A stretch of DNA of 27,419 nt from a virus: the IMG/VR virus record IMGVR_UViG_3300047480_000105, positions 1-27,419 of that record; one strand, written 5' to 3'. The notes under the pieces were generated by a model. It did not search any database and was not told the DNA's origin. It saw only the letters and a list, made by a program, of their open reading frames with translations. Shown here one piece after another: positions 1,038 to 3,825 of this stretch (its first letter is position 1; each line of letters begins with the position of its first letter). The translations under genes were made by a program, and so were the position numbers.

Positions 1038-1068
1038 TTTGTTATTTAAAAATTTTGTTTTAAATTTG
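1038..1068 (+). promoter_or_regulatory. Bacteroidota-type promoter (TTTG-N19-TAAATTTG)
   Basis: TTTG at 1038-1041 and TAAATTTG at 1061-1068 are separated by 19 bases, a full match to the consensus of the Bacteroidota primary sigma factor (TTTG near -33, TAnnTTTG near -7). Transcription should start near 1072-1076. It reads directly into the structured RNA that ends at the terminator at 1167. This is the best promoter match I found in the window. Confidence 0.75.
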
Positions 1069-1072
1069 AGAA

Positions 1073-1167
1073 CACAATAGGCCGAGCGAGTGGAAGCGAT
1101 CGGGTTATTTTAAGGGTTTAAAAAACCGAAGCCGATTTTGCTCTTCCACGCAAGTCGGCTTTTTTTT
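1073..1167 (+). ncRNA. Putative small structured RNA or transcribed attenuator leader
   Basis: A stretch of about 95 bases lies exactly between a consensus promoter and an intrinsic terminator and has no credible reading frame. GTGGAAG (1090-1096) is complementary to CTTCCAC (1143-1149), and AGGCCGA (1079-1085) can pair with TCGGCTT (1155-1161), so the 5' and 3' ends can close into a long rod. TCGG (1100-1103) can pair with CCGA (1126-1129) inside it. The terminator stem competes for the same 3' bases and holds CTTCCAC in its loop, so two folds are mutually exclusive. It could be a free-standing sRNA or a switchable leader for the HNH gene starting at 1174. I do not recognise a named RNA family. 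Confidence 0.6.
1129..1167 (+). terminator. Intrinsic terminator
   Basis: AAGCCGA (1129-1135) pairs with TCGGCTT (1155-1161), the stem can extend inward by one G-U and two A-U pairs, and the hairpin is followed by an uninterrupted T run to 1167. The loop contains CTTCCAC, complementary to upstream GTGGAAG, which would allow an alternative non-terminating fold. Confidence 0.75.
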
Positions 1168-1173
1168 ATTGTA

Positions 1174-1725
1174 ATGATGCAAAAAAGAAAAAGCATTACC
1201 AAGAAAACTCGCTTTGAGGTATTTAAGCGAGACTCATTCACATGTCAGTATTGTGGGGCTAAAGCTCCAGATGCTATCCTAGAGATAGATCATCTTAATC
1301 CAGTTAAACATGGAGGAGATAATGATTTATTAAATCTTATTACAAGCTGCTTTGTTTGTAATAGGGGGAAATCAGATAGGAAGCTTTCTGATAATTCAGT
1401 GGTAGAAAAACAGAGGATTCAAATAGAGGAGCTTAACATTAGAAGACAGCAACTTGAAATGATTCTTGAATGGCGAAATGAATTAAAGAAAGATTCCAAT
1501 TATCAATTTAATCAAATATCTAAATATTGGAATAGTAAATTTATTGGATTTGAGATAATACATCCAGAAATATATTTTTCAAAATTCCTTAAAAATTATG
1601 GATTAATTGAGATACTTGATTGTATTGACATTGCATACGATCAATATTTTAGAGGGAATAAAGAAAGTGCAGTAGAGGCATTGCAAAAATTAGGCGGAAT
1701 TTTATATAATAGATCAAGAAATTAA
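1174..1725 (+). CDS. HNH endonuclease (183 aa)
   Basis: This is an HNH-family nuclease with a zinc ribbon. Counting from the ATG at 1174, the CxxC pairs are C24/C27 (CQYC) and C59/C62 (CFVC), the metal and catalytic motif is D39-H40 (EIDHLNP), and N54 and N63 complete the fold (LLNL, CNRGK). The C-terminal 110 residues are helical and unassigned. The frame is open further upstream, but those codons lie inside the terminator hairpin, so ATG 1174 or 1177 is the real start. In phages such nucleases are free-standing homing enzymes or assist packaging or replication. Here it sits before replication genes, not beside terminase. The gene is AT-rich and nearly free of GATC, like the next gene, suggesting they moved as a pair. 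Confidence 0.88.
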   Translation: MMQKRKSITKKTRFEVFKRDSFTCQYCGAKAPDAILEIDHLNPVKHGGDNDLLNLITSCFVCNRGKSDRKLSDNSVVEKQRIQIEELNIRRQQLEMILEWRNELKKDSNYQFNQISKYWNSKFIGFEIIHPEIYFSKFLKNYGLIEILDCIDIAYDQYFRGNKESAVEALQKLGGILYNRSRN

Positions 1726-1726
1726 A

Positions 1727-2425
1727 ATGGATATATACTCATTAACTCGAAACTTTTGGGATTATTCATTTGAGAATCCTGATAGATTAAAACCTAATCA
1801 TGCAGCAATTTATTTCTTTGCTATTGAACATTGCAACCGATTAGGATGGAAAGAAAAATTTGGACTTCCTACTACTATGGTAATGGAAGCAGTAGGTATA
1901 AAAAATTACAAAACTTATCACACTGCTTTAATGGATCTTATTGAAATTGGTTTAATAGATTTAATTGAAAAGTCTAAAAATCAATACTCAAGCAACGTAA
2001 TTGCTCTGGTAAATTTTACCAAAGCAAACACCAAAGCACTTGACAAAGCATTGTCGAAGCACGTACCAAAGCAAGTCCAAAGCACTGCTAGTATAGATAT
2101 ACAATCTTACAATACTACAAATTTACCTATTAACAATATAAAGAGCGATTCTGATTTTGAGAAATTCTGGAATGCTTACGGAAAGAAAGTCGATAGGGTT
2201 AAATGCGAAAAGGCTTGGAATAAATTGACCAAGGATGAGATTGAAAAAATCAATACAACTGTTGAGGCTTACGTTAAGTCTAAGCCAGATGTTCAATACA
2301 GAAAGAATCCACTTACCTATCTGAATGGGAAGTGCTTCAACGATGAGCTTCCAGGATTAGGAAGAAATCAAAATAATATTTTACCTTTGAATGACAAACC
2401 TATAATAAATCAAGAATGGCTTTAA
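1727..2425 (+). CDS. Replication initiator or helicase-loader-like protein (232 aa)
   Basis: The N-terminal part (about residues 1-110, IYSLTRNFWDYSFENP onward) looks like a winged-helix DNA-binding domain of the kind found in phage replisome organisers. A variable Lys/Thr/Ala-rich linker follows. The C-terminal part (about 145-215, FEKFWNAYGKKVDRVKCEKAW, ending NPLTYLNGKCFNDE) matches the module seen at the end of many phage O-like or DnaT-like replication proteins. It overlaps the start of the DnaB gene by 10 bases, so a role in loading that helicase at the origin is the natural inference. No ATPase motif is visible, so it is not a DnaC-type loader. It is AT-rich, unlike dnaB. Confidence 0.65.
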   Translation: MDIYSLTRNFWDYSFENPDRLKPNHAAIYFFAIEHCNRLGWKEKFGLPTTMVMEAVGIKNYKTYHTALMDLIEIGLIDLIEKSKNQYSSNVIALVNFTKANTKALDKALSKHVPKQVQSTASIDIQSYNTTNLPINNIKSDSDFEKFWNAYGKKVDRVKCEKAWNKLTKDEIEKINTTVEAYVKSKPDVQYRKNPLTYLNGKCFNDELPGLGRNQNNILPLNDKPIINQEWL

Positions 2426-3825
2426 AACTAAACCTTAGCGATCTACACCTTGAGAAGGATATCATCGCTCACTTACTCAGCTATCCTCACTTATTTTCGG
2501 AGGCTGACAAAATAATCAATGCTGAATCGTTTACTGACACTTTATTTAAGGCGTCATATTTGGCGTTTAAGGAACTATCGCTAGAAGATAAGAGGATCAC
2601 TAGAGCAGATGTATTTCGTGTCCTTAAAAGCAAAGAAAAAGAGAAAGGAATTTCTTCGGAGCTTGTCCTGAAATTAATGCCAGACCGAGTGATTAACTTA
2701 GAGGACTCCTGCTATTTGCTAAAAGAAACAGAAGGTAAGAGAAGATTTCACGATCTGGCATTCAAGATCCAGGCAGCGATCCTCGATAACAAAGAAGTCT
2801 CAGACTTACAGACGATCATCGAGAAGGAGATGGACTCACTAGAGCGATCTATCGAATCGACAGAGGTGTTCGACATCGCTAATCTATACGACGATGTGAT
2901 CAATCGCCTAGAAGAAAATGCTGGAAAGATAAAATTCTCAGGGATCGATACTGGATCTAGGGACCTGAACTATATTCTTGGAGGATTTCAGGAAGGAATG
3001 ACGGTGATCGCTGGGCGTCCAGGTATGGGAAAGACTATCGTAGGATTACAACACGCTAAGAGCGCTGCTAAGTCTGGAAAAAGAGTTTTATTCCTTAGCC
3101 TAGAGATGCCTAAAGAATCGCTTATGTTTCGCCTTATCAGCTCAGAAAATCATGAATATAAATACTCTGATCTAAAAGCGAACAGAGTCAAGCCAGATGA
3201 TATTCTGAAAATCAGGAACTCAAACGCGATGATCCTTAAATCCTTACCGATCTTCTTTTATGACTCAGATAATCGCGACATCAACTATCTGTCCATGATC
3301 CTGACCTCTGAAGCTAAGCGGAATAAAATCGACATCGTAGTGATCGACTATCTGCAACTAATTAGAGACAATCAGCTAAAGGATCAGTCAGACTTCGCTC
3401 AGGTTTCGTCTGTATCAAATAAGATCCAGAAGCTAACAAGGAAACTAAAGATTCCGATCATCGCCTTGTCTCAGTTATCCAGGGGAATCGAGGGAAGATC
3501 TTCAAGACTTCCTCAGCTATCGGATATCAGATCAAGCGGGAACGTAGAGCAGGACGCGATCGCGGTGATCGGTCTCTATCGGGATGACTATTACAAGTAC
3601 ACAGACGCCAGGGCTAACAATATGCCAAAGGCACCAGACGATAATATCCTCAACTATGTGATCCTAAAAAATCGAGATGGGGAAACCTGCACGATCGATC
3701 GATATGTCGATGTGACTACGAATAGGATCGCGGATTCATTTGATGAGCTGAGAGCTTATCAGGTATCCACTCAGACGAGCGCGATCAATACGATTAAAAA
3801 TGAGTTTGAAGAATCTAAATTTTAA
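2416..3825 (+). CDS. dnaB: DnaB-like replicative helicase
   Basis: A 469-aa protein with the full DnaB layout: an N-terminal helical domain (about residues 8-110), a linker, and a RecA-like ATPase domain beginning FSGIDTGSRDLNYILGGF. Walker A is GRPGMGKT at 200-207. Walker B is IVVIDYLQL with D311. The later motifs IALSQLSRGIEGR, LSDIRSSGNVEQDA and the arginine-containing IGLYRDDYY are all present. It is the hexameric 5'-3' helicase of the phage replication fork. Length is normal and it overlaps the initiator-like gene by 10 bases. The gene is unusually rich in GATC (about 28 sites by eye). Confidence 0.95.
   Translation: MALKLNLSDLHLEKDIIAHLLSYPHLFSEADKIINAESFTDTLFKASYLAFKELSLEDKRITRADVFRVLKSKEKEKGISSELVLKLMPDRVINLEDSCYLLKETEGKRRFHDLAFKIQAAILDNKEVSDLQTIIEKEMDSLERSIESTEVFDIANLYDDVINRLEENAGKIKFSGIDTGSRDLNYILGGFQEGMTVIAGRPGMGKTIVGLQHAKSAAKSGKRVLFLSLEMPKESLMFRLISSENHEYKYSDLKANRVKPDDILKIRNSNAMILKSLPIFFYDSDNRDINYLSMILTSEAKRNKIDIVVIDYLQLIRDNQLKDQSDFAQVSSVSNKIQKLTRKLKIPIIALSQLSRGIEGRSSRLPQLSDIRSSGNVEQDAIAVIGLYRDDYYKYTDARANNMPKAPDDNILNYVILKNRDGETCTIDRYVDVTTNRIADSFDELRAYQVSTQTSAINTIKNEFEESKF

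Follow-up and report, generated by a model that had tools for sequence, protein, structure and literature searches.

A short transcription unit in front of phage replication genes, located at 1038-1167 of the viral record IMGVR_UViG_3300047480_000105 (positions 1 to 27,419; this whole stretch of 27,419 nt is termed the window), likely constitutes a cis-acting, attenuator-type 5′ leader of the replication operon. It is predicted to specify an RNA in which the loop of the first hairpin is exactly complementary to the loop of the terminator hairpin. Since this kissing pairing is kept through compensating mutations and recurs in otherwise unrelated RNAs, it probably governs the timing of replication-gene expression. 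Secondary structure, kissing pair, and genomic position are well supported by comparison of homologous sequences.

The promoter of the RNA lies downstream of an ORF of 63 amino acids (840-1031). Further upstream (437-843), adjacent small ORFs starting with MTPKEK have the appearance of tandem paralogues and are reshuffled among relatives. The first downstream gene encodes an HNH endonuclease (1177-1725, plus strand; Pfam HNH, 1.2e-13). Its ATG codons at 1174 and 1177 are located 6 and 9 nt past the U-run of the leader, and homologues use the second one, position 1177 being the start adopted here and 1174 also a possible start. It is followed on the same strand by a putative replication-initiator gene (1727-2425), assigned by its position before the helicase gene and giving no confident match in a Pfam search, and by a DnaB-like replicative helicase gene (2416-3825; Pfam DnaB_C, 1.2e-61).

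The predicted RNA covers ~93 nt of the plus strand (putative ends 1074 and 1167), scores 93 bits with the covariance model based on a 61-sequence alignment, and contains no conserved reading frame. This bears out the initial annotation, which had described a structured promoter-RNA-terminator unit of a phage with about 95 bases lacking coding potential. A conserved leader peptide was rejected, as the GTG of the window reads GTA or GTC in other alleles. The minimum-energy fold (-29.9 kcal/mol, z -2.6 versus shuffles) consists of three hairpins on the plus strand. Hairpin H1 (1076-1109) is built from stems 1076-1080/1105-1109 and 1082-1088/1097-1103, interrupted by the mismatch G1081xG1104 and, in the window sequence, by 1086x1099, and carries the loop 1089-1096. 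H2 (1115-1127) is a linker hairpin formed by GGTTT/AAACC. H3 (1129-1167) is the predicted intrinsic terminator, already recognized as such by the initial annotation, with stems 1129-1135/1155-1161 and 1139-1141/1150-1152 (hairpin 1129-1161) and a U-run of eight (T8, 1160-1167). A GC-rich stem followed by a U-run is kept in 61/61 homologues; a simple terminator scan missed H3 due to the internal loop in its stem, which the scan disallows.

The kissing segments GTGGAAG (1090-1096, plus strand; family rule GTNNNAG) and CTTCCAC (1143-1149, plus strand; CTNNNAC) had been recognized earlier as complementary, together with GGCCGA and TCGGCTT, and both complementarities are real. They had been interpreted as mutually exclusive with the terminator. 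However, GTGGAAG occupies the apical loop of H1 and CTTCCAC that of H3; the two can, therefore, pair loop to loop with both stems standing, which makes the kissing pair compatible with the terminator. A rough geometrical estimate puts a straight H1-kiss-H3 stack at ~80 angstrom, a distance that the linker of ~20 nt, once H2 has formed, would only just bridge; thus, H2 and the kiss may be coupled.

The promoter assigned to the unit (1038-1068, plus strand) is composed of a -33 element TTTG (1038-1041), a 19-nt spacer, and the -7 element TAAATTTG (1061-1068). It fits the TTTG/TAnnTTTG form of the Bacteroidota promoter consensus, reported as TTTG/TANNTTTG (PMC6847099), whose -7 box is placed at -12 to -5 relative to the start (PMC9723704). 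Transcription would accordingly begin at approximately 1073-1074, two or three bases 5′ of the H1 foot. The initial annotation had rightly placed a promoter in front of the RNA and called it a consensus promoter; a sigma-70 type was rejected, since a sigma-70 scan of this site found no promoter, and the element is of another type. Within the 27 kb, the Bacteroidota-type consensus matched twice versus 2.4 matches expected, a single match thus being not above chance, while a TAnnTT box is located 26-28 nt 5′ of the kissing loop in 94/102 homologues among the matches listed. The promoter type, as the sole basis, suggests Bacteroidota-type hosts. In four loci (L059, L066, L088, and L127) and about 25 others, the leader promoter carries TAnnTTGY in place of TAnnTTTG; this resembles the SM5 motif reported from Flavobacterium psychrophilum (PMC9723704), with an alternative sigma factor being possible. 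An inverted repeat TGTCAC-N16-GTGACA, likely a repressor operator, overlaps the -7 box of the leader promoter in some phages and occurs elsewhere in L116 (sites at L016:4160, L017:4195, L019:3978, L020:4194, L024:4194, L026:4154, and L116:6833).

Homologues were collected in two ways. With the helicase protein as bait, 50 loci were obtained, and the RNA was present in 26/26 close relatives whose contig reaches the region; in eight other relatives, the contig starts too near the helicase gene to include it. A terminator-pattern scan of viral contigs revealed at least 107 places with distinct flanks and a perfect complement in the H1 loop. The 24 listed pattern matches devoid of this complement were all unrelated terminators except one truncated copy (L168), showing that the covariation did not arise from filtering by the complement. 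As the scan prescribed CT...AC in the H3 loop, besides stem and U-run, the invariance of these four positions rests on the protein-found sets. Rejected in the course of the screening were the listed pattern matches in genome contigs, lacking the H1 complement, as well as the pattern hit L305 and loop matches in L138 and L150, all located inside genes. The covariance model separated the family (79-109 bits) from everything else (≤32 bits), with one truncated member (L132) at 58 bits; a candidate at 32 bits (L261) was inspected and not counted. Each locus hosts one copy, and no ectopic copy was seen with this model.

In the alignment of 61 representative homologous RNAs, the 29 pairs of H1, H3, and the kiss were paired in 99.0% of cells, 19 of them changed on both sides. 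The covariation score amounted to 0.438, compared with 0.149 for shuffles and 0.05-0.08 (at most 0.083) for slid controls. Compensatory changes were found in 11 of the 12 pairs of H1 (97.5% of cells paired) and in five of the 10 pairs of H3 (100% paired), and a linker hairpin H2 of 3-6 bp could be drawn in all 61 homologues. The pair 1090-1096/1143-1149 is formed in 61/61 sequences, the three NNN positions covarying freely through the loop alleles AGG, GAG, GGT, GGA, CAG, CGG, and CGT of GTNNNAG. The apical loops are hence maintained as complements by covariation, whereas the physical complex is predicted; a homodimer is equally compatible with this pattern as an intramolecular kiss. The loop covariation led us to reject an ordinary terminator. 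A scan of all column pairs in the 61 RNAs yielded no helix alternative to H1, H3, and the kiss; covarying pairs elsewhere were isolated.

The position of the RNA is just as regular. Among the matches listed, an ATG-started ORF follows 6-15 nt past the U-run in 105 of 107 places (98 of them at 8-11 nt), and the remaining two run off the contig end; the terminator thereby lies between the promoter and the first gene of the operon in the same 105. About 17 different first genes were found behind the leader, including Lin1244-like or helix-turn-helix initiators, HNH genes, and small ORFs. Such a short distance leaves no room for another promoter, in contrast to an ordinary upstream terminator of the same phages, which is followed by a promoter and a spacer of >100 nt. 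Phage genomes being compact, the short spacing could partly reflect packing.

To this, a search in which the RNA played no part added an independent set: two initiator proteins as baits returned 140 loci. The window-type family was located upstream in 83 of them; in 70, the initiator starts at an ATG 9-12 nt past the U-run, and in 13 a further gene lies in between. Most of the remaining loci had other RNAs of the same kissing design. Screened automatically for a 7-nt complement with stems around both copies, a U-run, and an ATG within 26 nt, 91 of 112 distinct initiator leaders contained a kissing terminator, whereas dinucleotide shuffles gave an expectation of 0.1. Of the 21 leaders missed, L311, L326, and L370 belong to the window family by eye, L354 represents its own type, and most others have another ORF directly upstream.

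The leaders of this wider class differ in sequence. The GTNNNAG/CTNNNAC type appears with six alleles in the initiator-bait set. Type B forms an 8-bp kiss (loops CTCACTAC, CTCTCGAC, GTTCTCAC, and CTTCTCAC with their complements). In types C and D, 7-nt loops are paired over their full length (ATGGTAC/GTACCAT, GTCGCAT/ATGCGAC, and GTCGTAT/ATACGAC); their stem and loop pairs are formed in 6/6 sequences (one outer terminator pair in 4/6), many of them compensated. The L354 leader kisses through AACACAC/GTGTGTT, and a distant phage (L042) through TGGGGG/CCCCCA, with an ATG 7 nt past the U-run. A second, sequence-unrelated kissing leader, GTTGCAGC/GCTGCAAC, at L049:469-585 (same in L306:10733-10849) directly precedes a homing-type HNH endonuclease gene, where relatives carry an ordinary terminator and promoter. 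Types C and D align with each other, while the other types are without evident sequence similarity. The retention of this loop-to-terminator-loop pairing in several sequence-unrelated RNAs means that the contact itself must be under selection. One further initiator leader (L447:1365-1503) shows long-range complementarities fitting none of the described types.

The placement between promoter and replication genes, the lack of room for a second promoter, and a terminator loop with a partner already waiting point to an attenuator-type leader. We infer that the unit is transcribed and ends at its terminator, that the replication genes are expressed by readthrough, and that the kiss adjusts termination. 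Transcription would start at the base of H1, which would fold first and expose a loop of 7 nt. The putative terminator H3 is the strong hairpin that comes next, and its loop, exactly complementary to that of H1, would enter the kiss; because H1 is finished before H3 is transcribed, the H1 loop could capture that of the terminator while the latter is emerging from the polymerase. The majority of transcripts would stop at the U-run as a compact ~93-nt RNA, whereas readthrough transcripts would carry the replication genes, with the first start codon ~10 nt later. By raising or lowering termination, the kiss would determine the frequency at which RNA polymerase stops and, thus, act as a built-in attenuator.

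The strongest competitor, which we nevertheless regard as unlikely, is a stand-alone small RNA with targets in trans, either RNAs or proteins of phage or host; the terminator would then simply form its 3′ end, and the replication genes would be served by readthrough from the upstream operon. An own promoter, a predicted 5′ end at the H1 base, a fully structured body, and a terminator would suit it. Yet in every case the RNA immediately precedes an ORF, with a short and constant gap, and no copy was located elsewhere; the loops best exposed for pairing match each other instead of being free, and between types only the architecture is conserved, not the sequence.

Less probable still is a 5′ structure that protects the readthrough mRNA or keeps its ribosome-binding region accessible; the kiss would be a clamp stabilizing it against nucleases, and termination would be incidental. 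H3 stops 13-20 nt short of the start codon and leaves the A/U-rich initiation region unpaired, and structure near the start codon lowers initiation in Flavobacterium johnsoniae (PMC6847099); but stem and U-run form a textbook terminator in 61/61 aligned homologues, a feature that the pattern search required. Of comparably low probability is the proposal that, once terminated, the leader RNA has an additional function in trans, its exposed loops pairing with the matching loops of nascent leaders and raising termination as phage genomes multiply, so that the variable loop bases would define allele-specific groups of replication control or superinfection immunity. This would explain differing loop alleles beside identical neighboring genes: the upstream 63-aa protein is 100% identical at loci with the alleles GGA, AGG, GAG, or GGT. 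If true, immunity or copy control would be exerted by one self-complementary RNA, not by a sense-antisense pair.

The attenuator or riboswitch logic of the initial annotation holds as far as the attenuator-like position and the covariation are concerned, but not regarding alternative folds or a riboswitch match in Rfam. Neither the window nor the other leader types matched Rfam at the gathering score, with no known aptamer family among the results, permissive thresholds gave chance matches only, and the downstream genes are replication or cargo genes with no metabolic theme. The switch between a terminator and an end-to-end rod that breaks it, as originally proposed, is highly improbable: the rod lies only 1.4 kcal/mol above the minimum in the window sequence, which accounts for the first impression, but averages 8 kcal/mol worse across the 61 homologues (within 2 kcal/mol in only 5/61), its segment is 70% paired (pair 20-98 in 3/61, pair 18-100 in 37/61), and its GGCCGA/TCGGCTT half is neither conserved nor covarying, in contrast to the strongly covarying GTGGAAG/CTTCCAC. 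A conserved antiterminator helix excluding the terminator, as present in classical attenuators, was not found among these RNAs, which speaks against the attenuator reading.

Related principles are known from plasmids and a satellite phage. In the ColE1 RNAI/RNAII kissing complex, 7-nt loops pair along their entire length, like those of types C, D, and L354, although that complex is intermolecular and controls a replication primer. In the repZ leader of I-complex plasmids, loops of separate hairpins pair upstream of the replication initiator, similar to the phage leader. A few loop bases of this pseudoknot set RNA specificity (PMC10724649). The switch acts on translation with an antisense Inc RNA and without terminator. 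The repA leader of the RepA_N plasmid pSA564 likewise combines a replication-initiator gene with an intrinsic terminator; the terminator hairpin of its RNA1 doubles as putative kissing loop, and kissing-loop mutations raise the copy number (PMC8129170). In that plasmid, however, the partner in the kiss is supplied by a distinct antisense RNA, and the leader alternates between an ON and an OFF fold (PMC8129170), whereas the phage RNA holds both loops, with no alternative fold or antisense transcript evident. For the latter, a scan of the minus strand for one promoter type gave a single TTG-N-TAnnTTTG match in 27 kb, at ~24.3 kb and far from the leader. In the CI RNA immunity of satellite phage P4 (PMC4825925), phage replication genes are also controlled through transcripts that stop prematurely within an untranslated leader and carry complementary segments themselves. 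P4 relies on a processed antisense CI RNA that targets seqA and seqC; in the present leader, complementarity is loop-loop and confined to a ~93-nt unit with an intrinsic terminator at its end. Common to RepA_N, P4 CI, and I-complex repZ is a leader structure controlling replication genes, with kissing loops in two of them and a separate antisense partner.

Our (incomplete) literature search retrieved no report of a leader hairpin kissing the loop of its own terminator in cis in phages. Homologues were found in metagenomic viral contigs only, none in cultured phages and plasmids, and a covariance-model search of 397 and 395 Bacteroidota genomes gave no homologue; one 38-bit hit was rejected as two adjacent chromosomal terminators with non-complementary loops. 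The architecture, absent from Rfam, occurs in >100 phage loci before the replication genes in a large group of uncultured phages. It makes a general question testable, namely whether a tertiary contact with a terminator loop can tune intrinsic termination, and the covariance model together with the loop rules can be used for annotating these phages.

The same phages contain a second conserved promoter-terminator stretch downstream of a metallophosphatase-like gene (L003:985-1110; also L015, L012, L024, L149, and others), in which TTTTCATAG...TATAGGTTTAGA is followed by a terminator centered on a GGATNTTATC-like sequence; its conserved unpaired blocks suggest another small RNA. In L003, L012, L020, L024, and L080, the next promoter is followed by short 5′ leaders with a AGCAACGAAGCT-like hairpin, located ~150-260 nt past the metallophosphatase-like gene and preceding differing first genes.
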